From Echinarachnius parma (Eukaryota; Echinodermata; Echinoidea; Clypeasteroida; Echinarachniidae): a stretch of 64,000 nt of DNA. Position 1 is the stretch's first letter, and each line of letters opens with the position of its first letter. The notes below the pieces were generated by a model that worked only from the letters and a program-made list of their open reading frames with translations, did not search any database and was not told where the DNA came from. Positions 17,351 to 57,719 of the stretch are shown one piece after another. The stretch lies in contig JBAMJV010007761.1 in assembly GCA_037951105.1 (NCBI GenBank), positions 1 to 64,000 of the forward strand, given 5' to 3'. The translations under genes and the position numbers were made by a program.

Positions 17351-17419
17351 TAGAAGTGAATTCTAACAATTCAGACAAAGTTTACACTAATACTTCCGTA
17401 CATAGATTATTGTTGCACT

Positions 17420-17839
17420 GTGTGGGGTTCTCTAACAAAAAGAGACATGTTGAGGATACAAAGATGCCAAAACAAATACGCTCGAATGATTTTGAAAGCT
17501 GACTATAATACTCCATCATTGGGACTCCTTCACTCACTGAAATGGCAGCCCGTTGAACAAAGAATACATTTTCATTATTATGTTATGGTGTATAAGTTAT
17601 TGCACAACCTTGCCCCACAATACCTTTGTAATTTAGTATATAGGCGTAATGCAGCATATTGTACTCGTTATACCATTTCTAGCCAATTATACTTGCCAAA
17701 ACCTAGAACTGAATATAGAAAACGCTCCTTCTCGTATGTTGCAAGTAAACTTTATAACGCACTACCTATGTATGTCCAAATATCTCCCACATTAAGCATA
17801 TTTAAAAAACGCCTTCGGCAACACCAGTCCATTATATGA
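17420..17839 (+). pseudogene. Non-LTR retrotransposon reverse transcriptase, C-terminal fragment
   Basis: The 139-codon reading begins WGSLTKRDMLRIQRCQNKYAR. It matches the region after the RT domain of CR1/Jockey-type elements, where a Trp-Gly is followed by KIQxxQxRxAR. Later parts (HSLKWQPVEQRIHFHYYVMV, then TEYRKRSFSYVASKLYNALP) are typical of their C-terminal ends. It is 5'-truncated. The 3' side runs to about 18210 and ends with an ATC-rich tail (TTATCATCATCAT), as seen in such LINEs. Confidence 0.75.
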
Positions 17840-37195: not shown

Positions 37196-37201
37196 TTTAT
37201 T
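37196..37201 (-). terminator. Polyadenylation signal of the receptor gene
   Basis: AATAAA on the minus strand, ten bases past the TAA at 37212. The short 3' UTR supports 37495-37212 as the last exon. Confidence 0.6.
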
Positions 37202-37211
37202 CGTTCTTTTC

Positions 37212-37495
37212 TTATTGAATACGGACACGATGATTGTCCAATATTTCTCTCTCTCTTTCTTTTATCTTCAGACGTGTATTAAATGTTTCACTTTCTCTGA
37301 TGCATTGCTTGATCAGTCGAAGGATGGCAAATCGGCTAGAAGGTTCGACCTTCGGTTTATTCTTCCTCGCATTCTCGATGAAGAAAAGTCGATCGCTTTC
37401 AATAGTGAAGAGGCGCTGCATATGTTCTTCAACGCGACCGACTTCAATCTCGCTGAGCATGTCAGCGTGGGTAACAACTATAATTGGATCACGAC
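37212..37495 (-). CDS. Receptor exon 9: GTPase G4 region, C-terminus and stop
   Basis: The acceptor is TATATTCATAG, entry is in phase 1, and a TAA stop lies at 37212-37214. DPIIVVTHADML forms the G4 strand with THAD where canonical GTPases have (N/T)KxD; IFI44-like proteins also show THxD-type variants here. DRLFFIENARKNKP then resembles their G5-side strand and VxNY-like turn. RFAILRLIKQCI is the final helix, and the tail is basic. No internal donor is convincing, so I take this as the terminal exon. Confidence 0.85.
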
Positions 37496-40400
37496 CTATG
37501 AATATAATATAATACACAAGAGCAGGTCATAAGTGTAATTTCGGTGTGTGTGGTTTAATAAATAATAATAATAATAATACATAATATTGATATTGCGCTT
37601 CATACTGGTGTTTCTAAGCGCATTTCAAACAAAAAATAATACAACTAATACGGAGTGCGCCTGGGGGAAAAAATATATATACATGCCAATACCAATATCT
37701 AAAGTATTAACGCTACAAAATATAACCAATTATAAAACAATATTATGTAAAACTGAGACAAATCCTACGGTTGATTTAAAAGGTAAATTTTAAGGAGTGA
37801 TTTAAATGAAACTACTGTGGGGGCATCTTGGATATGATGGGGACGCTTGTTCCAAAGGGTTGGAGCTATTGTGGAAAAGGCACGGTCACCATATTAGGGC
37901 CCCGTTGCAGAAAGAGATACAATCGATTGTAAGTTGTGATTGATCGTAAGTCAGAAAATTTACGCGTTTCAACCAATCAGATTTGCGCAACTTACAATCG
38001 ATTGTATCTCTTTCTGCAACGGGGCCCTAGTCGTATTACGGGGTCCATGGAAAAGCTGCAGTGTTGAGGAGGAACGGAGATGTCTGGATGTAGATGTTTG
38101 GATGAAGAACAACATCCATTCAACAGGCTGAATATACAGACTGTCCCAGATAAAACGAAACCGGGTTTCATGGCAGAAATTTTCTGTCATAATGAATAAT
38201 TTCCTTGATGATATATATATGTCTGGAAAGCTCTGTGTCTCTTCTTTCATTTGATGTACAACTTATGGCACATAATTCAAGCATGACTGAATTAGAACAA
38301 TGGAAAGTGGTGTTACCAATATTTAATTTGCACGCATACATTTTAAGTTTGGGTGAGTTTTAAGGGTTGTAAACGGACTTGTTTTTAAAAAGGACAAACA
38401 CCACATAAAAGTTCATATTTTTATCTTTTACATGACACCTCATGCTAAAAAATTAAATGATTTATGCCAGAGAACAAGTACAATGAAAACATTGACTGAT
38501 TTCTGCCCAAATGAGTGAAAGTTGAGTAAGAAGTCGCTCAGCTTTCCTGAATTAGCAGCTGACAATGGACTTTGATGCATGAGTGAATTTACACAAACGT
38601 GGGGATCAGGGAAACAGGCTAGATCAGGAAAGTTACTCATTTGGGCTGGAATCAAGCATGTTTTCATTGTACTCGTTTTCTGGCATAAATCATTTATTTT
38701 TTAATCATGAGGTGTCATATAAAAGATAAGATTATGAATTTTTATGCGGTATTTGTTCTTTTTCAAAATAAGTACGTTTACTACCCTTAAAACTCACCCC
38801 AAAACCTCACCCAAACTTGCAATATCTGCGTGCAAATAGAATCTTGGTAACACCACTTTCCATCGTTCTAATTCAGTCATGCGTGAATTATGTGCCATAA
38901 GTTGTATATCAAATGAAAGAAGAGACCCAGAGCTTTTCAGACATATATATATCATCAGGGAAAGTATTCATTATAACATAAAATTTCTGCGTTGAACCCC
39001 GGTTTCGTTTTTTCTGCGACAGTCTGTATAGACGTGTTTGCCTCTCTGGAAGTATGAACTCATTACAGAATCGACCCCGAGACATCCAGATTGCTAGATC
39101 GGTGCTCTAGCCATAATAACCATTGAGCCGCAAGGCCGCAGTCCTTCATAGAAACCCGTTTAAATCCTTGAACCGGTCAGAAGCTATTTTAAGCCTAAAA
39201 TATGAACAACAAAAAATACTCAGACACACCGTCCCCCTCCGTATGTCCCTCTCAGATATAAAGAAGATCGAACCCTATATTTTACCTAAATCTTGTAGGT
39301 AATCTTGAGAAATCCAAATTACAACGGTGATACGCTGCGTCTGTGACTGCCTACATGCATGAGATATCTTATATTAGGATACACAATCTTGTAGTAAACA
39401 TACCTAATCCACGTCTTATAGTATTTCGTAGCTTCTCGGCTCCATCATCATCCATTGTGTCCAAACACGTGCTCCCTCTGCAAAACAAATATATAACAGA
39501 GTAGAATATAATTTAGTGTAACATGCACGATGACTCGATGCCCTCATGAATAATATTAAAAGTACGCTTTATCAAGGGTAACTCTTCCGTATTTCCTCAA
39601 GCCGCAATTTAATAATATTGATATTAAAGGGATAGTTCAGCTTTGGTATAGAGGGCGCTACACACACTAATTGTGTTGTGAGATAATGAAAAACTGAGTG
39701 TAAAATTTTAAAGAGCATACAATTTCAATGACGGGATAAACTTTATTTGATCAAACCTCAACTATCCCTTTAATCACTGGTGTGGGAGGGGGGGGGGGGG
39801 GGGAGCTTGTGGCACCCCCCCCCCCCAAATACATTTTCAATAATAGCTTATATCTAATTCGATACCAGTGATTGAAAAAAGGGTATTTCTTTAGACATGA
39901 TAACTCAGATTTTACTTCATGTCAATTCAAATTTGTGTCCTAAGTATGTAACAGATTCGATAATTTCAAGTAAAACATTGCAAAAACACCCTTACCGTGC
40001 ACGGACGGACACTCCCCTACGATCACACCCTCCTATCACCCTCCTCCCTCTCGGTCGCTTCGCTCCCTCTGGAATCGGTCTTGTCAACGACTGGAATACT
40101 TTGTTCATCTTGTTGTATCATACATAATGTGGCTTTTGGTGCAATGTTTGAACTGTATATGTCACTTTGCGATTATTATTTTGGGGGTGCATATTTTTTT
40201 TCTCAAATAAAACCTCTTTTTTGCGGTCGGTAGAATCATGACGCACTTACCCACATTATAGTACATGTCGTCAAGTCCGAATTTCCTTTCTAGGTATGCG
40301 TCAGATTGCACAGCTTGAAGTCCAAAAAGCAAAAGCCCCCTACCGTGGGAGGGGGGACACCCCCCTCCCACACCCTCCCGCCGCTCAGTCGCTTCGCTCC

Positions 40401-43400
40401 CTCGCAATATGCGACTGCGAATTTGGTTTTGCCTCCAAAAGTTTTTACTCATTACGCCAGTGCCTTTAATTATGTAAACTGACTTGAATATGTGTTTACA
40501 TATTAAGAAAATGCACATTTGTATTCCGCCTTGTACAAAATAACACAATCTAAGCGGGGGAGGTTGATACCTATGTTGTTCCAAATTAAAATTATTGCCT
40601 ATCATATTGCCTTTCAGTATAACTTACTTCAAGACGAGGATAGCATTTGTCAATTTAGGGCTCAGTTCCGGCGGGGGGTTCAGAGGGGATAGTTCAATGT
40701 CCGTAGTCATGGTAGCACCGTTGGCTGTCTCTTCATTACGATCCAGATCTCCTTTCCAGTTAACATCCTCCCAACCTGACGCAGTCCCATCTGTAGCATA
40801 ACCAAACAAACATCATATCACGAGGTTTCATTTGCATTCGGGAAGCAGGTTTAATTGTGTTAATACTATGTGTTAAATAAAACTCTTGGCGCGCTTGTCT
40901 GTGAATTATCATTTGAAATAAGGCATTACATAGCTGGAAGGTGTGACAATCATGTTTGTGTGTGGTTGTGTAACATATTTATTTGTTATTTCCAAAAGTA
41001 TATTGCAAAAACTCCTGTACACAGCAATTGGTCTATGACTGTTTACGCGGCTCCTGATAGTACTTGATCTTAAATGTGTAGGACAAGCATCATTATATCT
41101 AGGTAGAAAGGAGATTTACAGAACTTTAGGGAAACCACCACCCACAACCTTTTGCTTATAAATGAACGAGAATATATACTCCGCAAAAAAAGAAACTGGA
41201 CACTTGTATAAGTTGAAATATTTAATATTAATGTACGATAAAGTGTACATGATCATATATCAAATTAAAGGGAATTTAGTCCTCTACATGGAGGGTATAA
41301 CTTAAATGTGTAATCGTTCATGCATGAAATGCCATGGTCAATTAACACTAGCAAGGTCTGTTTTCAAAAATAGCAAAACAATGGAGGACCACACCATTCG
41401 ACTGAAATGATAGTAAGCGTTTCACTTATAACAAGATGAGCGGGGCAAGTAAATTATGACATTATTCAATTTTATTGTTATGAACAAACTCTGGAAATAC
41501 AAATTTGTCAATAAAAACAGGGTCAGGTTATGAGAGCATTATCATACTGGTCTGTATTACAGGCATGAAGCTTGTCTATTTCATGTGTCCCCTGCAATTT
41601 TAACCATAGTTACCTAGAGAAATGTCATGTTAAAGACTGCCCAAATGTTTGACCAAGGGTGACTTCAGGTTTTGAGGATCTTTGGACTACGGTATAATTC
41701 TTGAGAAGAATTTATACCATTTTCATGCTGAAATAAGGGCACAAACTGTGGTTTTGACTAATAAAGCTTTGCCATGGAATTCCCTATTTTGTTACTTTTG
41801 GATGAAAATAACACCTATAACGTTCACAATTTGTCTTCATTTATACTCTTTATTGAGATGAAGATAGAAAAGGTCACATTTGTAATGAAAAATTATGCCA
41901 TCTCATGAATATAACGTTTGAGATTATGCTTATCAACATTTATATGGTTGAGTGGATGATCCATTTTTGCTATTTTTGAAAACAGACCTTGGTATGGTTA
42001 ATTGACCGTGACAAGTCATGCATGAATGATTTCATCTGGATTTCATGCGAATTTTGTAGAGGGTAATTTGATCTTTAATTTGATATACAATATCATATAT
42101 TTTATCGTTAATGAATACGAAATATGTGGTCTCATACAAGTGTCCAGTTTCTTTTTTGCGGAGTATATTAAGTAGTCCATTCCACCTACAAGTTCTAACA
42201 CATAGGTTACCAGCAAAATCTTATCATGATTCAAAACTCGTCATCAAACTCAATCAAGTTTTCATGGATCTGCAGAAGAAGAGTAGTTCTAATGTATATA
42301 TCAATTGAAGAAATTGATGTCACGAATTATAATCATCCATGCAAAAATAAATATAGTTCTTTCTGACCAACCATAACAAAACGTGTTGTCACTTGTTCCA
42401 TACGAAACATAGTATCTTACTTATCTGTGCTTCAAGTTCTTTCCAAGCATTTTCATTTGTCCAGTCATTCCAACCTCGATTGTCCCGGATGGTGATTTGT
42501 TGAGTAATTTCTACAGGTTCTCGCCACTGTGTGTGTCCTCCCATGTAACATATTGGTGCAGTAGCAGCTTTTTCGACAAACAACTCTTGATAATCTGGCG
42601 ATAATCCGAAAAACATTCGAATCATGCTGTTTTTTGCTCCCCATGAACCTGGATTCCTCCCACCAATTACGGTCAACACAGTGTTGATTAATGAAGATTT
42701 TCCAACTGATGCCTCTCCAACTAAACCTATCTGCGTAGGCGTGTCTCCTACATATTGCAAAATGTTTGACTTCAGGCGATATATTTCTTGCACATCTAAA
42801 GTTAGAAAGAAAATTACAAGAAGTATACTCGTCAAATAAGCATCCAGGTAAAAGTGTTCAACTTCTATTTCCAAGTTATTTATTTTAATTTACCTGTTGA
42901 GATTTGATCAACGTAAGTCAGTTTCATTTTCGGAAAGTCATCGAATAGGGAAAGACCAAAAACAAACAAACATGCAACTTTAGGAACCTACGTTTTATAT
43001 CTTTTACCTGCATTCCTGACTTCCCAATGGAAAATTGTATTCTCTATTACTTAATTGCGACTAATTTATTAAAGGGACAGGGCTTTTTTTTTCAAAACGT
43101 CTGAACAGTTTCCAGTTGACGGATGGGGATAAATGTAACACACACAACACAAATCAGATCGAACCGCAATGTAATTTGGATTCTACGAATGAAAAACGAA
43201 TGCGTCCCTCCATCAAACTATATATCGGTCAATAAAGGAGTTTAACTAATTTAGCATAATACAGGGTGGACCAGAAATAACGGAACGGGGCACTTCCCAA
43301 AATAAAGTATCAAAATGAACATGTCCATTGGATAGGGTGTCCTTTCCAATGAAGAACGATACCAAGAAAATTAATTTTGGACGTGTAGTTTTTGTTTTAG

Positions 43401-46400
43401 GGCGCTTTGAGTGAGACCATGTCAGGTCCCTATTTTTGTCAATTTTTACCAAGTCAGTGCCTGATAAATGAGACTTATTGCCCTACATACCACTGAACAC
43501 GCGAGTATTCCGCGCGCAATTGTTAGTGTGCATTCAGCTGTGTGCCGAGCGGTGCCGAGAGAATGGACATAATTATGGCGGGCAGTAGGTCTCAAATATC
43601 AGACACTGACTTGGTAAAAATTGACAAAAATAGGAACCTGACATGGTCTCACTCAAAGCGCCCTAAAACAAAAACTACACGTCCAAAATTACTTTTCTTG
43701 GTATCGTTGTTCATTGGAAAGGACACCCTAACTGATGGATATGTTCATTTTGTTGCTTTATTTTGGGAAGTGCCCCGTTCCGTTATTTCTGGGCCACCCT
43801 GTATTACAACAATATTTTACTTATTCTTGTAAAGGTATTGTGAAGCCGACATTGGTAAAGGTATGTCACGGAAATAGATCTAAAAAATGAAGAATATATA
43901 ATAACATGTAGTCAGTTTAAGCGAGGTTTGGTTATTTTGTTTAGTATTCGCTCATGCCGTTGTATATCAGTACGCGGGTCACGTAGCAGGCGCGGGTCAC
44001 GTAGGGCCACGCACAGCACCGTGGTAATCCGTGGAATCTGTGTGCGAACTTTCTCACCGGGTGAATACACGAAAAAGAGATTTCAAGCCCTAATTTCTTC
44101 AGGCATGCTGTTCATTAAATTACATTTTCTTTCTTAAAAGACAATAACCTAGCAACTTTTGGAATTCGGCTCGCAAAAGAGGGCCTGACCCTTTAACATA
44201 TTATTTGCTATTTATTCTAGTTTATGCAATTAATGGACACACTTTTATCTTTTTTCGAATCAATGAAAAAAAAAATTAGTTGTGAATTTTGAAGAGCCTG
44301 TTTATCCTTATGTTTTCTATTGATTTTACTCCCTTTTGTGTGTTTTTCTACTTATTATGCATTTCAATACATTTTTTTTCGAGCGATAATTCAATAATTT
44401 TAGCACTAAAATTACATGTAAATGGGAAAAGTCAAAATTACTTATGTTTTTAGATGTTCTTATACCAACAAGTTATAATACACAAATCACATATGAAGAC
44501 ATACAGTCTTATAACTTCGTGATGGTAGGTCCGATTTTCGGAATTGTAAACATGAGCAAGACTTAAAAGAATAAGGAAGCGAAGCGGGGGGTGGCATCTT
44601 CACGCTTTGCCGAGAAATCGCAAACAAATCGTGGAGGGGTGGGAAAATGGGCATTATGACCTGTGGCCTTTTTAGTTATAAATGATGAGCTAGACAAATG
44701 AAAAAGGAAATTTTGATGTTTACCTGGATATGGTATGGACTCACGGAGAGATCCAAGCCATTATAAGTAAGAGTTAAATTTACCATTTGTTGTGTTTCCG
44801 GCATGAAGAATGAAGCATCTGACACCAATTGCAGTAGCAGAGAGAAGAATCAAAACGATCATCAGAACGGTTACGACGATGAGCCGTGTACCACTTGGCG
44901 AGTTTACTGTGGAAGAAAGCAAAACAATTATGAACAGAACATTTGCATTGTTGATACTGAATAAAACAACAACAAAAACTATTCTAAAATGTTCGTACTT
45001 ACCTATATTAAAGAGCTCAACTGCACATTTGTTCTCTCAAAACACACAATTCAATACATTTTTATATCAACCCATTCATTTACTCGTCAATACTTTTCCT
45101 TTTCCATTTAATGAGATCTAGTATCTCTGTCATGTCTGTTGACAAGTGCAAATAGTGATGTGTGGTTAACAAATGTGTAGTGGTGTGATTTGATATATCC
45201 CGAAAGTAATGTGTGGACATTTTAAGTTAATTGGATGCTATTTGGCCAAGGAATGAGCGAAAATTGTAAAGTCATATTCACTTACTCCTTGCACTTACTT
45301 TGTACACGGATGAAAATGTCATGTAGATAATTGTATGTCCGAATATTTTAATCATAACTATCTTTTTAACGAAATGGAAATCTGAAAACCCGAAACCTGT
45401 CCCATGCCTTTTTGTTAATACGAATTAACCTCTAGAATTCCAATTAGATTTTCAGGATATGTACAATATTGCTAATTCCCTTTAAGGTGAAGGTTTTCTT
45501 CGTTAATGATTTGTTAACTCCGGCGGTCTTTTTAATAATAATAATAATAATATCAAGAATAAGAAGATCTATAATAATACTAAAATATGCATTAAGATAA
45601 TACCACAAATGTTCGATTGCGCTGATGGTCGAACTTATGGGAGTAGGTAAGTTTTCAATAAACACTGAACATAAACAACATTAAAATAGTTAAACCATTG
45701 AATACTTATTTCGGGACCTTCATCTAATTTGTCTTAAAGTGATCCAAGTAAAGTGTCTAACTACACGAAAATTACTTGGAGCTTCCTCGTTTCTATTCTG
45801 CCGTGTTGTTTAGCTTATGGTAAGAGACGAATAAAATAGGGTTAGATTTGTTAAAATGTCCCTAGTATGAAGATAATTATCATTGAAAATCATCATCTCA
45901 AAACCGTTGCTCAACGCTTTTGGTAAAAAGTACAATTGCCGTAGCTGAACACGTCCGGCCGGCGCGCCACGCGATCGATGTACCCAAATTCTGTACCGTC
46001 TGTATACACGGGTGCGGATATCGTCAAACGGACGATTTTTACTGCAACAAATCTACGGCAGGCCATCAGTATTTTTTCACTAGGTAAACAGTGTTCGTTT
46101 TCTATCTTTCAATTGTATTTTACAATGATATTGATATAGGATTGAAGTCTCAAATGTCATTTTGTGCAATATCTGACACTTTACTTGGATCACTTTAATG
46201 CACGTCAATTAGTTATATTGTTGTACTCATTGAGAACATCAAAAATATATATTTGATTATGTTTTATACTATAGGTCCCCGTGATATATTTCAAGAAGCT
46301 TTATTTTCATTCTCTGTAATGTTTTAATTTCACAATCTCCGGTAAGAGTAATTACAAGTTATTACAAAATCGTATGTACATATTGTTTTACCTGTAACTA

Positions 46401-49400
46401 ACTGGATGGTCGTTCCGGATCCATTCAATCCCACTCTGCGATCGTATGACAAGAAGCACCCAAGTGTTTCGGTTTGAGATGTGACAACGGAGACTGTTAT
46501 TCTTAACGTGGATGTCGCGTCTCTGCTCTTAGAGACAATTATGGTTGAATGTGAAGGAATTATCATTCCGTCTTCCCCTCTCCATTCTAAAAACGCGTAT
46601 TTCGGAACGTAGGAGCTGTGAATTTTACATGTGAGATTTTGGGCAACGTTCTTCTGTGTACGATACATGCATTTTCCTTGTTCAAAAGACTGCTCGCACT
46701 GCAGAATTGTAGGAGCTATTTCTTCCGTTGGAACTAAAAAGATAGAGAGGGAGAAATACGATAAGCCGTCTAAAATATATAAATTAAACATGTTCCTGTT
46801 ACAACTTGTAATAAAAGCTGACATAGAACGCTAGAGGTTTCAATGTCAAATTAGTTTGTGGTACCTAACCATGTACATTCATTTCAAAAAGTACGCAAGG
46901 ACGAACAAAAAAAAGTTTATGGTTTATATTTACACCCCGACGATGATTCCCCTTTCCAGAATATCCTACATAAAACGTACCCGCTAATAATTAAGGGCCG
47001 GTCATACTTACGGTAGTGGACGTAGTGATCCGTAGGGTAATTTAATGTGGGTCAGACGCGGGGTAAGTACGTTAAACTAGGTTAAACTAAGTTGAACAAC
47101 GTGGAACTACGTTGAATTACGTTAAGGTACGGTGGATGGCCACGGAAGGGTACGGATATGTACGTTTAAGTACATTAAACTACGCTAGACTACGCTAATG
47201 TGGGTACAGCTTTCTCACGGACAGGTACGGAGTGGTACGTCCGACTACGCTTGAGTACGGGAGACTGCGGTAGCCACTACGCTGGACTACGCTAAAGAAC
47301 GTCAAACTACGGTAAATAGCAACTCCGCACGGAGTATAACAGCCAACCGGTGGTGTGGTACGGCCATTGCGCTTTACGGCCATTGCGCTTGTTTTTCAAA
47401 CATAGCAGGTCTGTGAAATTTGTCTTATTTTTTTAAATTAAAAATATCTGGATCAAGACTGTCGATGCTGGTTTTGTGCACGGTAAAGTACGTTAGAGTA
47501 CGCTAGAGTACATTTAAGTACGTAACGAATTACGTTAGACTACGCTAGACTTCGTTAGACTACGCTAGACTTCGTTAGACTACGTTAGACTGCGTTAAAC
47601 TTCGGTTTAGTACGTTATTACTACGGATGCCTTTAACGTACCGCTCTTTTGAACATGTTCAAAAATTACATCGAAGATCAAGGCTCCCCCGAGTTAATAC
47701 CAAGTTAGCATCACAGACAACTACGGTACGATACGGATGCTAGTACGTTCAACTACCTTCAACTTCGTTCAACTACGATCAACAACGTTAGCCACCACTA
47801 CGTTCAACTACGTCCACTACCGCAAGTATGACCGGCCTGTTCCCTAGCTTCATGAACCTCAACATCAACCGATATTACCCTGAAATACAGAAAGGAATTA
47901 AATATTTGTAGTGGAGGTGTTGTGGAACGATCGTATAGCTAGGCGCTTAAGTACAAACCACGGAAGCCGATTTCGAACTAAAGTCAAAGCCCCAGTACAG
48001 CACCCGGTCATTAAGCAAAGCTGCTCCCCACCGAGGTGCAATATGGATACTTGGCATGAATGGGGGGCTTATGCCGAAAGGGTGGGTAGCGTCGCGTCGC
48101 GTCGCGTTGACTGGAACGCGACCATTCGTCCAAAGCCCCCCCGGTTTTGCCGAAAAGGTGTGTTGGGGGCGTCACGTTGCGTCGCGTTGACTGGAACGCG
48201 ACCATTCGTCCAAAGCCCCCCCCCCCCCAGTTTTGCGTTGGAAGCACTGATTTCCCGTTGACAAAAAAATCATGCGATTCGGCATATCTCAGCCAATTCT
48301 TAACATAATTAATTGATTTTGGGGGTATTTGGACATTATGTTGTATTCTCTTTCGGTAAATGAAGTTCAAATTTGAAAATTAAACAATTAAGATTTGTAT
48401 GACGTCATATCTTGTGTACTCAGTTTGCTCAAGAGTAACCATCGAAGCCTTGGAATAGTTCACCTTCGGATCGAATTAAATTGTGTGTAATCGAAACTTG
48501 AAATGACACAAACCTGAATGATGGTGGTCAGACCAATGGCGTACCCAGGATTTTTTTCAGGGGGGGGGGGGAATGTCGTCTGACAAATTTATGTAAGCAG
48601 GGGGGGGGGGGGGGGGGAGTGGCCGTATACATTTTTTGAAGCCGAGACAAAGTACATTTACAATTTTCGAGGGCTTATATGTGGTCTCGAGACCAGCTAC
48701 AAATTGTAAAGAAGGGGTTCAAACCCCCAAAACAGTCATTATTTGGTCAAAGGAGGGGGGGGGGGGTGGGAGTTGAACCCCTTCCCCCCCCCCCCCCCAA
48801 AAAAAAATATATATATATATAAATAAAAATCCCCTCCTCTGGGTACGCCTATGGATCAGACTCAAATTAATTAACTCCGATGGTAAACTATTCCAAGTCT
48901 TAGATGTAGAATCTTTAGTAAATGTCTATTTTGATACAAATTAGGCCCTTCATAAGTTTGTTATACTTTCAGTTACACGTGTTACACATAATAATTGTTT
49001 GTAAGATAATGAAAAACTGGGTGTCAAATTTGAAAGATCATAATATTTTAATGACATAATAAACTTGATTTGATTAAAATCGGTTCAAAAACGGCTGAAA
49101 TATCCATAAACGTAACCATTTGTAATAAATGTGGGGCCCCACAATTATTCAATAATTTTGAACCAACCGTTACAAAAATATTTAAAATGCTTCCTCTTTT
49201 CAACAATTTTAAAAAGAAGTTTTTTTAAAATTCTTGATTATCTCTCTATCTAATCAATATTTTGACAAACCATCACATGCACAATATTTTATTTTAAATG
49301 GTTGAAACCAATGAGTTTTTAGAGAGCGCCCACTTGCGTTTGAAAGGCTCTTTTTGAATGATAACAGGCTCTTTACTTAGTCGTTTGTAATTTTATATTC

Positions 49401-52400
49401 CTTTCGAGCATGGTGGAGTTATAACTATTAGTTTGTTATGTAATGGTGCAGGTTTTGGTTACTAAAATTCAGTTTGACCAAAACTGCATTCTCTTTACCA
49501 GAACTCAACTATTCCTTTAAATAGATGTAGCGTCAAATGTAACTTGTTGCGTAAAGCTCGTAATAATTCGCGTTTAAAACTTAACAAACTGTGACTAATC
49601 GTGATTTAGCGGAAGGTAATTCACGTCGTACCTTACTCTTTGTAGATTAAAGTGTGAAACTGTGGATTGTGAATGTGACAGATTGTTGCAAGCAATTGCC
49701 AATCATATAAATGTACGTGTATAATCCCAATTAGCCCTCTTGTGTCATTTGTGATCTTGGCGGATACTCTAATATACAGTATCTGTGCACAAGACCAAAC
49801 AAAGCTGCATCTGCATTTACCACTCAGTGCTGTTACCTGCGATCAAATAAATTGAAGATCCACTATGTTTCACTCCACTCTCTGATAGGTAGGCGACGTT
49901 GCACCAAAAGCATTCAGGCACCAACACGCTGACATTTAAAGAACACTGCAAGGAATACGTGTTGTCATCATTTCTCGCGGGAGTTGACGTTTTCGATAAT
50001 GCGGAAGCATCACCTTTTCGTCGCCACTCCATTACTGCTTCATCTGCTGGGTAGAAACCACGCATCTCACACGACAGGTATTCAGGCTTCCCTGCCGACA
50101 CGGATATCTCACAGTCCGCCAGGGGCCCTGAATCATTGCACTGGTTGATGACAGGATTTGGATGGACCGGTGGCACTTTAAAGGAAACAAAAAAATCTTC
50201 TCAGACAATATCATAAGTTTTCGTTTTCATATTAATGAACCATATTTTGCTTGTGAATTAAAACACACAATACAAATTCAGAGGCTGAGAAATATTCGAA
50301 CAAAACAATTTAATTGTTTGGTCAAAACCATGTCCTATTCGAGCAAAATAATGGCATGATATAGGACAAACTGTATATACAGGGTGGCCCCCCCCCCCCC
50401 CCCCCAAAAAAAAATAAAAAATAAAATAATAATAATAATAAAAAATAAATAAAAAATAATAAATAAATATATATATATATTTAAAAAACGGAACGGGGCA
50501 CTTCCATTAGAGGCAAAATTGTCACTTTTCAAAAGTCACAAGAGTCATGTGACTTTTGAAAAGTTCCAATTTTGCCTTTAATGTGCGCTCACTCATGCAT
50601 GACTCACAGGGAAGTTAGTCAATTAATGTAGAAACAATCCTGCCAAGTTATTTTGCTCCAAATTTGTTTGTTAAAAAGTTACGCTATTTTGATTAGGGGG
50701 GACTTACTTTTTGTTGTTGTGTTTATAATGTATGTTTCCGTAAACTACATGACTTTGCCCTATATGTAGTTGCCCTATACAGGGTAGCCCAAAAAAACGG
50801 AACGGATCACTTCCCAAAATATTAGTAATACAAAGTTATGTCCATTGGATAGAGTGTCCTTTCCAAATGATACCAAGAACAGTAATTTGGACGAGTAGTT
50901 GTAGGACCATGTCAGGTTCCCATTTTTGTCATTTTTACCAAGTCACTGCCTACGGAGGGACTTACTTTTTTTGTTGCGTTTAATTGATCAGTATTGTTAC
51001 AAATTAATAAACCCCCCCCCCCAAAAAAAAAAAAGGCCCTCCCTAATCAAAATAACGTAATTTCGATAATAACGATAATCAAAATAACGATAATTTCATC
51101 CCTGTACAAAGTAAGTGCAATGAGTACGTAAATATCACTTTGCTTAGTTGCTCACATCTCAGCCAAAACACATTTAATTAACGTGACATTTCCACACATT
51201 ACCTTGTGGACATATCATATGACACCAATACTCATCGTCTTTTGCACTTGTCAAGAAAGTTAATAGATCCCTTTAACAGCGTGAAGGGATTATCATTATA
51301 TTCCCATGCATGCAATACTTACCACACTAAGTGTATGAATATTATTTGGAAAATCCGTATAATACAAGAAAAATGAAGGGGCATTTTTTGTCATGCCAAA
51401 AAGGGCAGAACATGGACAATCTTTCATTTTATTTCAGGGATCATAAATTAGGTATAGTATGCATTTCGAGATACGAAGACTTGATAGACTCCACCTTATT
51501 AAGATCAGCCTTAAAATTTATTTGAACGTTAGTCATTACGTATTATAGTATTTAGTGAATTTCTCCCAAATGTATATAATGTATATTCTGTATATTCTGT
51601 ATATAATGTATATACTTCTCGCTTATAATGTATATTCTGTTTATACATTTTGTGATATTATTATGTTAATGCCTAATATTGTGAATACTTAATATATAGC
51701 TGGTTCATGTAGTCATAGTTTATTTACTTACTTAAATGAGCGAATATTATTCATCACATCAGCGATAGTTCTTATGTCTGCTTTACCAATTTCTATGTGT
51801 GTTAATATTTCTTATCATGACTGTGTTCTTGTTATCTTTGAAGATTTGGTAATACAGTTATTCATTCATTAATTGATTTCCTTGAATAGAATGCACATCA
51901 ATTTAAATTAAAATGTAATAAGCAAAATCTGAAAAATGGTAGATGCAACATGTATTTCAATGTTCTCCTATGTCAACTAGATGATTTGTGAAAATCCCAT
52001 GTTAACTGAACATGACGTAATAAGGAAATAATAATTGTTATTTTTATAATCCATTGTCATAAGTTTGTACACGGGTAAAATGATCCATGGGATTTTTCTA
52101 AGTATATCTATTCAAATTATATATATTCAAATAACAAAGAAAGCATTAACAAATCCAAAGGTATTTATATACTTCCATTAGTAACAAAGAACCAGGTATG
52201 AAAGGATCACTATGTAAATTTAGTTGGTATGTAGACGTAGCTCTATGGACGGTTTTGGAGCACATACCATGTCTCAACTCTCAACACATAATGTACGCTC
52301 CTAACAACAATTTTTATGATTTGGTTCATTGGCTGACTATAAGAACACAACGAAATTACTTCAAAACGAATCAAATCCAAACTCTATACGAATAGCATTC

Positions 52401-52802
52401 GACTCTGAAGTTTAGAATATAATAATTATTCTTACCAATAACACGTAACTTCGTAAACACATCCAGTAGTGCTGAGGCGAACACGGAGCACTTATAATAA
52501 CCGTCATCTGACAGGGATAGATTCCTGATGATAAGCGTTGGCAAGTTGTCGTCTAAATCGACACGATTAGATGAATAGCCATTTCCATAAACCATAGATT
52601 CTCCAGAAGTTTGTTGTATTACGAAGTCCCAGACTGCTCCATTCTGATGGAACCAAATAGTTGATGTAACTTGTCCGAACCCATATTGGCAAGGTAGCTC
52701 AGCACTATCCCCTTTCAAGAATGAAATGACTTGTCCGATTTCTTCACAATTAACAAGAACCGTTAAGATGAGCGCTGTAAGTAAAATGTTGAAATTAAAC
52801 AT
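37212..52802 (-). CDS. Ig-superfamily transmembrane receptor with cytoplasmic IFI44-like GTPase, nine-exon gene model
   Basis: The exons are 52802-52436, 50175-49837, 46733-46392, 44906-44784, 42977-42894, 42795-42421, 40790-40628, 39477-39404 and 37495-37212. They join without a stop into 2151 nt, giving 716 residues. Domain order is signal peptide (about 1-20), V-set Ig (about 21-122), C-type Ig (123-235), C-type Ig (236-349), transmembrane helix (358-378), linker, then a P-loop GTPase (about 419-716) with GEASVGKS at 445-452, DNRG at 523-526 and THAD at 631-634. The first seven exons, through the P-loop exon, all end in phase 1; the last two junctions are phase 2 and phase 1. The family comparison for the GTPase is interferon-induced protein 44 (IFI44/IFI44L), recognised from motif spacing and not from a database search. 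A role as an innate immune surface receptor is inferred. Exon 5 is the least certain piece, and leaving it out keeps the frame. Confidence 0.82.
37897..38029. mobile_element. Hairpin MITE, GGGCCCCGTTGCAG termini
   Basis: GGGCCCCGTTGCAGAAAGAG and its inverted copy enclose a 40-bp loop. Both arms contain the palindrome CAATCGATTG. Confidence 0.9.
38137..39026. mobile_element. Foldback element with long arms and TA duplication
   Basis: Ends CAGACTGTC / GACAGTCTG flanked by TA. Arms of over 300 bp match inverted (CATTTGATGTACAACTTATG, GGAAAGTGGTGTTACC). It lies in intron 8 of the receptor gene. Tc1/mariner-like. Confidence 0.85.
39066..39145 (-). repeat. tRNA-derived SINE head, decayed copy
   Basis: Shares CTAGCAATC.GGA.GTCTCGGG and a following TCGATTC with 30455-30522. 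It lies in intron 8 of the receptor gene. Confidence 0.5.
39404..39477 (-). CDS. Receptor exon 8: short helical GTPase exon
   Basis: This 74-nt exon has acceptor ATATTTGTTTTGCAG and donor GGATTAG/GTATGT. It enters in phase 2 and leaves in phase 1, exactly what exons 7 and 9 require. It encodes GSTCLDTMDDDGAEKLRNTI and a few further residues, an acidic turn and a basic helix between the ILVLK strand and the G4 strand. There is no diagnostic motif; the support is position, splice sites and frame. Confidence 0.78.
39627..39772. mobile_element. MITE family K, internally deleted copy
   Basis: AAAGGGATAGTTCAGCTTTG / CTCAACTATCCCTTT, with only the first 100 bp of interior left. Confidence 0.8.
39785..39827 (+). 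repeat. Poly-G / poly-C tract
   Basis: Long G run, then a C run after a 14-base spacer. Confidence 0.9.
40000..40410 (+). repeat. Repeated GGTCGCTTCGCTCCCTC segment, two copies
   Basis: Copies at about 40000-40080 and 40335-40405 share CCTACCGTG, CACCCTCC and CGCTTCGCTCCCTC. The readings across it (40162-40605 minus among them) are repeat artefacts. Confidence 0.6.
40628..40790 (-). CDS. Receptor exon 7: GTPase continuation
   Basis: The acceptor is GGTTATGCTACAG and the donor TTGAA/GTAAGTT. It enters in phase 1 and leaves in phase 2. An acidic, Trp-containing stretch (SGWEDVNWKGDLDRNEE) is followed by a proline-rich turn and LTNAILVLK. The last piece is a hydrophobic strand, probably the one before the G4 region (IFI44 members have a similar HCVVFV-type strand). 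It was placed by splice sites and frame continuity. Confidence 0.8.
41175..42167. mobile_element. Foldback element, ACTCCGCAAAAAAAGAAAC termini
   Basis: ACTCCGCAAAAAAAGAAACT / AGTTTCTTTTTTGCGGAGT next to TA. Further inner arms match (GACCTTGCTAGTG-like and CAAAAATAGCAAAA). About 1 kb, in intron 6 of the receptor gene. Confidence 0.85.
42421..42795 (-). CDS. Receptor exon 6: P-loop GTPase core (G1 and G3)
   Basis: The acceptor is TTTCTAACTTTAG and the donor ATAA/GTAAGA, phase 1-1, 125 codons. QIGLVGEASVGKSSLINTVL contains a textbook Walker A/G1 (GxxxxGKS). TIRDNRGWNDW supplies a DxxG G3 motif after an extended strand, at the spacing expected of IFI44-like and septin/dynamin-related GTPases. 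VQEIYRLKSNIL before the P-loop matches the helix that leads into this domain in IFI44-like proteins. The domain should lie on the cytoplasmic face. GTP binding is likely; hydrolysis is unproven. Confidence 0.88.
42894..42977 (-). CDS. Receptor exon 5 (tentative): juxtamembrane linker
   Basis: The donor CAACAG/GTAAAT is strong. The acceptor CCTAAAG is weak, with little pyrimidine tract. With these sites the exon is 84 nt, phase 1-1, and open. It contains LFDDFPKMKLTYVDQIST, a polar stretch of the kind that precedes the P-loop domain in IFI44-like proteins. A different acceptor, or skipping of this exon, leaves the rest of the model unchanged. Confidence 0.5.
43071..44194. mobile_element. AAAGGGACAG element interrupted by a nested MITE
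   Basis: Ends AAAGGGACAGGG / CCTGACCCTTT. Flanks inside it (CAGTTTCCAGTTGACGGATG, GGTCACGTAG, GAAAAAGAGATTTCAAGCCC) match 59908-60543 throughout. The 43262-43801 insert is absent there. In intron 5 / 4 of the receptor gene. Confidence 0.85.
43262..43801. mobile_element. CAGGGTGG mariner-type MITE, intact, nested
   Basis: CAGGGTGGACCAGAAATAAC / GTTATTTCTGGGCCACCCTG, with arms of about 190 bp and TA on both sides. The homologous site at 60085-60100 reads straight through as CATAATATTACAAC, confirming ends and target duplication. Confidence 0.92.
44784..44906 (-). CDS. Receptor exon 4: transmembrane segment
   Basis: This short exon has acceptor TTTCTTCCACAG and donor AAATG/GTAAAT, phase 1-1, 41 codons. 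The translation begins NSPSGTR and runs into LIVVTVLMIVLILLSATAIG, about 20 uncharged residues. VRC and a polar stretch ending GNTTN follow. The Arg and Cys after the helix suit an inner-face stop-transfer and palmitoylation. It follows the Ig exons directly and precedes the GTPase exons, so the topology is type I. Confidence 0.85.
45130..45484. repeat. Repeat X, inverted copy
   Basis: TGACAAGTGCAAA through TTCCCTTTAA matches 18435-18800 in reverse. Confidence 0.7.
45737..46198. mobile_element. TIR element, AAAGTGATCCAAGTAAAGTG termini
   Basis: AAAGTGATCCAAGTAAAGTG / CACTTTACTTGGATCACTTT. Internal parts are shared with 14510 and 8451. In intron 3 of the receptor gene. Confidence 0.85.
46392..46733 (-). 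CDS. Receptor exon 3: second C-type Ig domain
   Basis: The acceptor is CTCTCTATCTTTTTAG and the donor ACAG/GTAAAA, phase 1-1, 114 codons. Cysteines at positions 13, 22 and 36 and Trp at 51 match exon 2 exactly. The distal Cys is at 93 (LGCFLSY) instead of 92, which marks the two exons as a tandem duplication. It lacks GFYP, with SSYVP in its place. STLRITVSV forms the predicted E strand. N-glycosylation sequons occur at NLT and NGS. This is the membrane-proximal ectodomain. Confidence 0.87.
46995..47842. mobile_element. Word-array TIR element, TACGTTAGACTACG family
   Basis: GGGCCGGTCATACTTACGGT / GGTAGTGGACGTAGT ends, inverted at ACTACCGCAAGTATGACCGG. The interior is dense with TACGTTARACTACGCT words. 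In intron 2 of the receptor gene. Confidence 0.85.
48085..48235 (+). repeat. Two-copy repeat
   Basis: GTTGACTGGAACGCGACCAT and TTCGTCCAAAGCCCCCC occur at about 48105 and 48188. Confidence 0.8.
48533..48860. repeat. G/C-tract repeat with GGCGTACCCAGGA ends
   Basis: CCAATGGCGTACCCAGGA and, inverted, GGGTACGCCTATGG bracket several G and C runs. Confidence 0.75.
48985..49521. mobile_element. MITE family K, copy 5 (one end decayed)
   Basis: Central GTGGGGCCCCACAAT and terminal AACTCAACTATTCCTTTA are clear; the left terminus is lost. Confidence 0.75.
49837..50175 (-). CDS. Receptor exon 2: C1-like Ig domain with GFYP motif
   Basis: The acceptor is TTTCCTTTAAAG and the donor GCAG/GTAACA, phase 1-1, 113 codons. 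Within the exon, Cys is at positions 13, 22 and 36, Trp at 51, and the partner Cys at 92 (FWCNV). The segment CEMRGFYPADEAVMEW closely follows the Cys-x3-GFYP-x7-Trp pattern of C1-set domains such as MHC alpha-3 and immunoglobulin constant domains. TYSLQCSLNVSV resembles their E-F strand region. An N-glycosylation sequon (NVS) is present. The extra Cys13/Cys22 pair, shared with exon 3, suggests a second disulfide. It could also be a C2/I-type fold that has converged on GFYP. Confidence 0.88.
50380..50580. mobile_element. Decayed CAGGGTGG MITE end, low-complexity run and palindrome
   Basis: TACAGGGTGGCC, then a C run and A/T-rich low complexity, AACGGAACGGGGCACTTCC, and the hairpin CAAAATTGTCACTTTTCAAA / TTTGAAAAGTTCCAATTTTG at 50514-50575. 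Confidence 0.65.
50780..50960. mobile_element. CAGGGTAGCCC MITE, truncated
   Basis: The left terminus with TA, AACGGAACGGATCACTTCCC and ATTGGATAGAGTGTCCTTTC match 43262-43440; the right half is missing. Confidence 0.7.
51105..51265. repeat. Repeat X, partial copy
   Basis: ACAAAGTAAGTGCAATGAG, CACACATTACCTTGTGGACA and TTTTGCACTTGTCAAGAAA. Confidence 0.65.
51266..52200. other. AT-rich intron 1 sequence of the receptor gene
   Basis: TATAATGTATAT-type low complexity at 51565-51640. No extra Ig exon was seen in this intron. Confidence 0.4.
52436..52802 (-). CDS. Receptor exon 1: signal peptide and V-set Ig domain
   Basis: The exon starts at ATG 52802 with a hydrophobic leader (FNFNILLTALILTVLV), so the protein is expected to enter the secretory pathway. 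The Ig fold shows Cys38 (LPCQY), Trp50 (TIWFH) and Cys105 in DDGYYKC, the classic DxGxYxC of V-set domains. It ends ATTG before GTAAGAATA, phase 1. A good acceptor (TTTTACTTACAG) lies inside the leader at 52776/52775, also in phase 1. The leader may therefore be split, with a separate upstream signal exon and an exon start at 52774. Ligand unknown. Confidence 0.85.
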
Positions 52803-55957: not shown

Positions 55958-56619
55958 GATATAGTATTGTAAAACATTACAAGTTTGATTTTAATTTTAT
56001 TTTATATTCAAAAACAGACGGCCGTATATGTAGTGTTTGTATGCATCAGGCAAACATTTAGCAGCATCAACACTAACTGTAGTGTGCTGATAGTTGCAGC
56101 TATAAAATTCATCTCTCCAAACTCGTGTTTTTTAATATGTATAATGGAGGATTCCTGGAAACAAAGAAATTCTGCTGGATGTACCCAAACAGTTGTTGGG
56201 TTCGAAAGAAATATTGATGTGTTGATTTTATTGTTTGCAACGTTTATGGGAGGACGTACAATCAGTTAAATCAGAAACGCAATCCTAGTTTAATTTGATA
56301 TTATAAGTTATGTTTAATGTGAAAAAGCAAATCGTTATTCAATCACTCACCCGTCAATCCAATTATGTGCAATTTTAAATACATATTGTTCATTCTAAGT
56401 TCAACTAAATCACAATTCCCCAATTGGAAACGATGTTACATTATTTTGTATCTTATATACTAAGATAGAACAGCTTTTCGTCCAGACCTGTCGAGAAACG
56501 TTATTATCAAGTAGACTATGATACTTAATTGTAAGGAGGCATCTGGCGCTGGTGTAAAATAATTTCACAGTGTGGGTTAAACTAACATGTTCGGAACTCT
56601 CATGTATATTTCGTTAACG

Positions 56620-56917: not shown

Positions 56918-57185
56918 ATGGCGTTCACAGTTGCCGTATGCTCAATATTTCCCTTGGAAAAAATTCAAGGTTTATTACATGTTTTACAGGACTCATCATA
57001 TACTAGTAATGTGGAAGTACAATATGAATCAATCAAGAACTATCTAAAAGAGATCCCGCAGCATCTTAATAAATATGATGCAGCCATTTTGGTACATTCT
57101 GTACACGATGGGCGCCTTTCAATCACCGACGTGGATGGCGCGAAGTACACGAAATTTCTTCCAAATCTCAAGAAAGTACTAGGCG
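56918..57185 (+). CDS. First coding exon of an unidentified alpha/beta-type protein
   Basis: ATG at 56918 (TTCACGATGG) opens 89 codons ending GGCG/GTGAGT, phase 1. The translation begins AFTVAVCSIFPLEKIQGLL. It continues with YESIKNYLKEI and the hydrophobic strand YDAAILVHSVHDGRLSI, then KFLPNLKKVLGG. The alternation of strands and amphipathic helices suggests a Rossmann- or flavodoxin-like, or caspase-like, fold cut by the intron before its next strand. I do not recognise the family. An acceptor-like TTTCAG nine bases upstream hints at a 5' UTR intron. The gene diverges from the Ig-GTPase receptor 4.1 kb away. Later exons were not found and may lie beyond the window. Confidence 0.6.
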
Positions 57186-57719
57186 GTGAGTAATTGCATT
57201 TAATTGAATAAGTTGTATTGTTGTTTAGTACCTGTATGGATTCAACATGCGGGCTCAATTTAATCTTTTGGTTGATGAATATTGACATAATATGGGTTAA
57301 AAATCTCTTGTGAAATGTGGAAGACTGAACAGTTGATGAGACGTGTCACCTGGGTGACCTGGGAGGGCCGCTTTAATAATCCCCTTTTCAACAGCCGATC
57401 GGGCCGCTCCTAATACCTCAGTCACATTTGCCACGGCGGCGGTACAGTCTGAAATATATACAGCCAATAACATTTATAGGGCCGCCGTAGCATTTCTACG
57501 GTCACATACATTAGTAGTCACATATGTTAGGGTAGCCGAACGGCGTAATTTGAATTTGTGGAGACAGAAAATCTGTGGCTGCCGTTCGGCCTTTGAAGTG
57601 ACGACGCACGGTCGCCTTAGGGCGTTCTTCCGGTGGCCGTAGGTTTTTTACAAGTACCAAGGCAGACGCAAGGGGCCCACAAGGCGGCCGCAGGAGGACC
57701 GTATCAAAATAAGAAAAAA

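Follow-up and report, generated by a model that had tools for sequence, protein, structure and literature searches.

A predicted receptor gene family in Echinarachnius parma that joins immunoglobulin domains to a putative cytoplasmic GTPase

Receptors that combine extracellular immunoglobulin (Ig) domains with a folded intracellular signaling domain are a known plan. Butyrophilins, for example, join Ig domains and a transmembrane (TM) segment to a folded cytoplasmic domain, B30.2. SIRP receptors have a V-C-C-TM layout like that of the receptor described below and signal through immunoreceptor tyrosine-based inhibitory motifs (ITIMs) or partners. The immune GTPases GIMAP, IFI44, GBP, and IRG are known inside cells. 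Members of the GIMAP/AIG1 and septin families are cytosolic or tail-anchored and are not Ig receptors, and IFI44 and IFI44L are cytosolic proteins with an N-terminal TLDc domain and a P-loop GTPase with a TH-type G4 motif. The gene examined here lies on the minus strand of a 64,000-nucleotide stretch of the echinoderm Echinarachnius parma, hereafter the window (GenBank assembly GCA_037951105.1; contig JBAMJV010007761.1, here C7749, positions 1–64000). The assembly comprises 1,200,326,526 bases in 14,790 contigs. The COX1 gene on contig C14600 makes sense when AAA is read as Asn (one codon), AGA as Ser (three codons), ATA as Ile (16), and TGA as Trp (12), which corresponds to the echinoderm/flatworm mitochondrial code (table 9); of the two groups, echinoderms are the likelier. 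The new element would be a putative GTPase as the folded intracellular domain. At a probability of roughly 0.6, we read the gene as encoding a type I receptor with a signal peptide, a V-set domain, a C1-set-like domain, a third Ig domain, a TM segment, and a TRAFAC-type GTPase, in which clustering by ligand would drive GTP-dependent assembly.

The closest published design found is AjNLRC4 of Apostichopus japonicus, an echinoderm membrane protein of the Ig-TM-NACHT type (PMC8699970). AjNLRC4 combines a pair of extracellular Ig domains with an intracellular P-loop nucleoside triphosphatase (NTPase) domain, and is reported to bind microbes via its Ig domains, to oligomerize, and to drive phagocytosis, with its intracellular domain binding actin. 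It shares with the window protein a layout of Ig ectodomain, TM region, and cytoplasmic P-loop domain. However, AjNLRC4 has a NACHT domain and two reported TM segments (PMC8699970), whereas the window protein has a putative TRAFAC GTPase and one internal hydrophobic segment. No NACHT family is present in the Pfam results for the joined protein (E-values up to 1). In addition, two Aplysia Toll-like receptors (TLRs) are reported to carry ROC-COR GTPase domains (PMC9334734). These are receptor chains with a GTPase, as here, but they are TLRs of a mollusc and their GTPase is of the ROCO type. A search of the open-access literature, with subscription papers and annotated animal proteomes outside its scope, found no report of an Ig-TM-GTPase receptor. 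A preliminary description of the locus, made from the sequence alone, knew of no described receptor that joins Ig ectodomains to an IFI44-like domain; AjNLRC4, with a similar plan but another P-loop NTPase, and the Aplysia TLRs qualify this. Butyrophilins differ in having B30.2 where the window protein has the GTPase, and no B30.2/SPRY match was found in the joined protein (Pfam, E-values up to 1).

Gene structure and continuity

The preliminary description placed nine exons between positions 37212 and 52802, with the start at an ATG at 52802. Nine coding exons are found in all, but eight lie inside this interval and the ninth is a leader exon upstream of it. The features of the gene are as follows.

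56452–56459, minus strand: TATA-like box 5' of the leader exon, from sequence and position
56351–56393, minus strand: coding exon 1, leader encoding MNNMYLKLHIIGLT, with which the predicted signal peptide begins; phase 1, with GTGAGT as donor; counterparts in five of six paralogue loci
52436–52774, minus strand: coding exon 2, end of the signal peptide and V-set Ig domain; phase 1-1; Pfam V-set
49837–50175, minus strand: coding exon 3, constant-type Ig domain, C1-set-like; phase 1-1; Pfam C1-set
46392–46733, minus strand: coding exon 4, third Ig domain; phase 1-1; tblastn match to exon 3
44784–44906, minus strand: coding exon 5, stalk and predicted TM helix; phase 1-1; Kyte-Doolittle hydropathy, with a homologous exon in paralogues
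42421–42795, minus strand: coding exon 6, first half of the putative GTPase, with P-loop GEASVGKSS (G1) and TIRDNRGW (DxxG, G3); phase 1-1; paralogues
40628–40790, minus strand: coding exon 7, middle of the putative GTPase, ending in a likely beta strand, TNAILVL; phase 1-2; paralogues
39404–39477, minus strand: coding exon 8, putative GTPase; phase 2-1; paralogues
37212–37495, minus strand: coding exon 9, end of the putative GTPase, with VVTHAD (G4 position), FFIEN (G5 position), and a charged tail; paralogues
37214–37212, minus strand: stop codon TAA; same stop in five of five paralogues
37196–37201, minus strand: AATAAA polyadenylation signal, from sequence

The eight exons inside the interval (52802–52436, 50175–49837, 46733–46392, 44906–44784, 42795–42421, 40790–40628, 39477–39404, and 37495–37212; 367, 339, 342, 123, 375, 163, 74, and 284 nt) join on the minus strand into 2067 nt, a multiple of three, without an internal stop and with GT/AG at all junctions. 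In these respects, and in ending with a stop and AATAAA (at 37214–37212 and 37201), the gene is as first described. By contrast, two junctions had been thought to depart from phase 1, and only one does: six of the seven are phase 1 and 40628/39477 is phase 2. The splice sites, described as good, score at or above about the 88th percentile for 13 of 14 sites, but the acceptor of the last exon is at about the 75th, as judged by an approximate vertebrate matrix. With the leader exon included, the model has a coding sequence of 2082 nt for 693 amino acids and a single terminal stop. The G+C content is 0.44 in the exons overall and 0.31–0.41 in the seven introns. For each of the five exons with at least 93 codons, the chance of being open in a given frame in this window is 0.0015–0.0059. 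Much stronger evidence against chance than these odds is that the exon set recurs, with its order kept, elsewhere in the genome.

For the 5' end, the leader exon (56393–56351) splices to 52774, and the join produces a continuous hydrophobic signal peptide. Its start is an ATG at 56393, with an alternative ATG at 56384. The ATG at 52802 sits 28 bases 5' of the first base of coding exon 2 and is in frame in the window. Among paralogues, here named by contig, C3540 and C7725 have an in-frame ATG nine codons upstream of that base, and C2551 (in the fetched stretch), C2213, and C1654 have none. As three of these five paralogues thus lack an ATG matching that at 52802, the leader exon is favored as the start; the ATG at 52802, the start as first described, is probably not the main one and could be an alternative. 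An AG directly precedes the hydrophobic stretch of the V exon in all five, and further upstream a short exon recurs whose phase-1 donor begins with GTGA. Its peptide is MFLKLHIIGLT in C3540, MFLKFHIIGLT in C2551, MKYMYLRVIGLT (or MYLRVIGLT) in C7725, MKNVYLELHITGLT in C1654, and MKNVYLGLHITGLT in C2213. No leader exon was found in the 4.7 kb upstream of C5340. The TATA-like box is also present in C3540 and C2551, and is changed to GTATGTAAG in C7725 and to GTATCTAAG in C1654 and C2213.

The order first described for the product (V-set, C, C, TM helix, and P-loop GTPase) agrees with the Pfam, exon-match, hydropathy, and motif evidence. In the joined protein, the V-set and C1-set families score 39.6 bits (cut-off 26) and 26.3 bits (cut-off 21), respectively. 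When scanned alone, coding exon 3 matches C1-set with 28.5 bits (cut-off 21), and coding exon 4 matches C2-set_3 with 15.2 bits, under the cut-off of 27. The third Ig exon resembles the second, with a tblastn local match of E 1.6e-7 against the window and 25% identity in a global alignment. Each C exon has a second cysteine pair, which is kept in four assembled paralogues. A profile of coding exons 3 and 4 matches SIRPalpha (E 4.5e-7) and SIRPgamma (2.4e-5) among many antibody constant domains and chains in PDB; these V-C1-C1 receptors (PDB 2wng and 4i2x) differ in having no GTPase. C1-set domains are not unusual in invertebrates, with 162 Pfam matches listed for a sponge genome (PMC12909245). 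The product has two hydrophobic segments, one N-terminal and one internal. The latter, a 19-residue segment with a Kyte-Doolittle mean of 3.0, is the sole internal TM candidate above 1.6. The product therefore has the signal peptide, Ig domains, and single TM helix of an Ig superfamily type I receptor. Split leaders and phase-1 Ig exons, typical of such receptors, are also present in this gene. No ITIM-like motif was found in the joined protein. Because the cytoplasmic part consists almost entirely of the putative GTPase, this domain is the likely output.

Among the seven internal coding exons, five have phase 1-1; the remaining ones (1-2 and 2-1) are frame-neutral as a pair. Such phases would allow the locus to make mainly alternative products, with skipping of the TM exon giving a soluble Ig-GTPase and skipping of Ig exons giving shorter receptors. 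However, the leader and TM exons recur in paralogues, and this explanation appears quite improbable.

The join between the Ig-TM and GTPase parts is predicted from genomic DNA. The parts could instead be an Ig-TM receptor gene and a cytosolic GTPase gene, neighbors that are always duplicated together. Segmental duplication would hold such neighbors together, and several contigs resemble copies of one block. A separate GTPase gene would be expected to have its start in intron 4, and candidate start exons are found there in the window (14 codons, weak) and in C3540 (20–23 codons). However, these two candidates are unlike each other, none was found in intron 4 of C2213, C5340, C7725, C1654, or C2551, and the C2551 intron is just 264 nt long. 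With intron 4 of C5340 and C1654, that of the window shares at most short pieces (69 and 33 bases), and it shares none with intron 4 of C2213 or C7725. Between the TM and GTPase exons, the copies have no start exon in common, which bears out the preliminary description of a single gene. In all five paralogues, the TM exon closes with a phase-1 donor rather than a stop, and the GTPase exon opens with a phase-1 acceptor. Groups that are only about 51–57% identical in the GTPase exon still have a TM exon upstream in five of the eight loci scanned, in a scan that sought phase 1-1 hydrophobic exons only. The GTPase exon of the L031 type apparently starts at GDTQIGLVG, a few residues before the P-loop (acceptor read by eye), such that the TM segment and the G domain would nearly touch. 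By these comparisons, little room is left for two genes, an arrangement we consider extremely improbable, and the receptor locus is real and almost certainly one gene.

Copies in the genome and their conservation

A genome search gave at least 69 exon matches for the GTPase part and at least 76 for the Ig-TM part. Clustering by contig and strand, which used all 69 GTPase matches and 60 of the 76 Ig-TM matches, resulted in 27 exon clusters. Of these, 19 (including that of the window) contain exons of both kinds, Ig and GTPase, arranged on one strand in the expected order, and none has another order. The clustering script would break runs at an order reversal or at gaps of more than 30 kb. Two clusters on one contig strand were obtained only for the minus strand of C1654; this split is due to a gap of about 159 kb, so no reversed order occurred. 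All eight exons are present in six clusters, the window's among them, and single exons are missing from some of the 19. The weak or stretched cases include C7186, where the Ig part is represented by two partial matches and the GTPase part by a single exon, and C10443 and the plus strand of C2551, where the V exon lies about 24–25 kb from the next exon. The eight single-kind clusters contain GTPase exons only (C3495, C3752, C443, C5776, C7380, and C7518) or Ig exons only (C4039 and C8067); that of C443 begins at the contig end.

The predicted family is multi-locus, with about three groups by similarity. Its gene number is uncertain, as haplotypes or recent duplicates may be among the contigs. 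Particularly, C1654, C7725, C2551, C3540, and C2213 each carry a copy closely related to the window gene and a diverged one, convergently oriented and with about 32–42 kb between the 3' ends. These five contigs may be haplotypes or segmental duplicates.

Among the close relatives in these five contigs, the acceptors of coding exons 3, 4, 5, 6, 8, and 9, the donor of each of the seven junctions, and the TAA stop are at homologous places in all five. For coding exon 7, the acceptor is kept in four of four, the fetched stretch of C2213 ending before it. The printed boundary of the C2213 TM exon is shifted by three bases. Length differences between copies preserve the frame. The four assembled paralogue coding sequences (C2213 left out for its cut exon, C1654 taken without its leader) are open, and their proteins are 74.6–84.2% identical to that of the window. 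Mean ratios of nonsynonymous to synonymous divergence (Ka/Ks; Nei-Gojobori, 10 pairs) are 0.43, 0.38, and 0.39 for the V, second Ig, and third Ig exons, and 0.47, 0.31, and 0.33 for the first GTPase exon, exons 7–8, and exon 9, respectively. The mean for the TM exon is 0.74 (nine pairs). These ratios indicate purifying selection on the coding blocks.

The V exon is the least divergent between copies, with a mean Ks of 0.13 (versus 0.26–0.50 elsewhere) and a mean Ka of 0.053. This pattern suggests homogenization, as if by gene conversion, rather than diversification. A diversified pathogen-binding domain would not be expected to be the part most similar between copies, and the product may serve in cell adhesion or in telling self from non-self (allorecognition) instead of being a receptor for microbes. 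Nevertheless, the V exon may be merely homogenized by gene conversion, and low V divergence also disfavors diversified allorecognition. This role is conceivable but unlikely.

The putative GTPase domain and its possible function

In the window protein, GEASVGKSS (G1), the DxxG motif DNRG in TIRDNRGW, and VVTHAD occur in that order. Among the six aligned members of a broader set (A3), GxxSVGKSS and TIRDNRGW are present in all six, and VVTH[AS]D in all five that cover it. The Pfam scores are low. MMR_HSR1 has 16.2 bits on the joined protein and 19.5 bits on coding exon 6 (cut-off 21.9), and AIG1 (PF04548) has 11.2 bits on the window's GTPase against a gathering cut-off of 27. The Pfam search of the joined protein thus recovers the V-set and C1-set domains of the preliminary description above cut-off, but its GTPase below. 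Within a set of five paralogues (A2), AIG1 and MMR_HSR1 are each detected in all five (best E 0.0019 and 0.0025, respectively). Within A3 (n = 6), MMR_HSR1 is detected in all six (best E 2.1e-4), AIG1 in four, and septin in two (best E 3.9e-4). These weak family-level signals of GIMAP/AIG1 and septin GTPases (PF04548 and PF00735) suggest that the domain is a TRAFAC-type P-loop GTPase, perhaps on the septin/AIG1 side. The name IFI44, given to the domain in the preliminary description, is not proven. No IFI44-named family or protein is among the Pfam and sequence-database matches, and no TLDc match was found in the joined protein (Pfam, E-values up to 1). The TH of VVTHAD presumably resembles the G4 motifs of IFI44 and Toc34.

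For a receptor with GTP-dependent assembly, the Ig domains would bind a ligand on a microbe or other cell, and binding would cluster the receptor. The crowded G domains would then bind GTP and dimerize or oligomerize at the membrane, as septin- and GIMAP-type domains do. Their assembly may recruit effectors, for example for uptake or cell-autonomous defense.

Several results weigh against the receptor reading. The window's GTPase is under every Pfam cut-off shown, and a PDB profile search of the GTPase gave no relative better than E 0.016. The G4 position reads THAD, which differs from the usual [NT]KxD and makes GTP specificity and hydrolysis uncertain. No homologue with E ≤ 0.001 was found outside this genome, in databases that may be poor in spliced animal genes. 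Moreover, Ka/Ks for single pairs is near or above 1 in places (up to 1.23 in the third Ig exon and 1.00 in the TM exon), and a diverged copy at C2213:13658–13972 carries a stop inside TIRDNRGW, showing that not every copy is intact.

The unusual THAD and the scores under Pfam cut-offs may also be explained if the domain is a pseudo-GTPase, a scaffold insensitive to nucleotides that would recruit, for instance, actin. A role of this kind is reported for the NACHT domain of AjNLRC4, whose intracellular domain is reported to bind beta-actin (PMC8699970). However, the invariance of GxxSVGKSS and TIRDNRGW in the six aligned members, and of VVTH[AS]D in the five covering it, argues against a pseudo-GTPase, which we hold to be doubtful, on a par with allorecognition or adhesion.

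If the GTP-dependent receptor is real, recognition outside the cell would be coupled to GTP-driven assembly inside without adaptors, and a second echinoderm Ig-TM-NTPase design would stand beside AjNLRC4. The design raises a direct question: does ligand clustering switch a GTPase? The chances seem about even that the family represents an undescribed class of echinoderm immune receptors, with Ig domains and a septin/AIG1-type GTPase as the only signaling module, encoded at multiple loci and head-to-head with a second conserved gene that may work with it.

Neighboring gene and repeat elements

56918–57190, plus strand: 91-aa first exon of neighbor X, a gene separate from the receptor and head-to-head with it; the exon starts about 0.5 kb from the leader exon

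A counterpart of X is found upstream of four of the five paralogues for which at least 4.7 kb of upstream DNA was fetched (57–75% identical), and is absent from the fetched stretch of C5340. It was not seen for C7725, whose contig begins about 0.5 kb before its leader exon. No Pfam family scores above cut-off for X. X also gives an unexplained match in PDB, covering 20 residues, to a flagellin hook protein (6xi1, E 3.1e-9).

An open frame at 17360–17839 on the plus strand resembles, by eye, the end of a retroelement reverse transcriptase, with no Pfam family matched. Within the introns of the receptor gene, fold-back (inverted repeat) elements are present at 43257–43806, 38133–39030, 41186–42157, and 37895–38029, with arms of up to 235 nt that are 75–100% complementary. 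A further element of about 840 bp at 46996–47837 has 40-nt inverted ends (88% complementary) and an interior that, by eye, is rich in TACGTTAGACTACG-like repeats.

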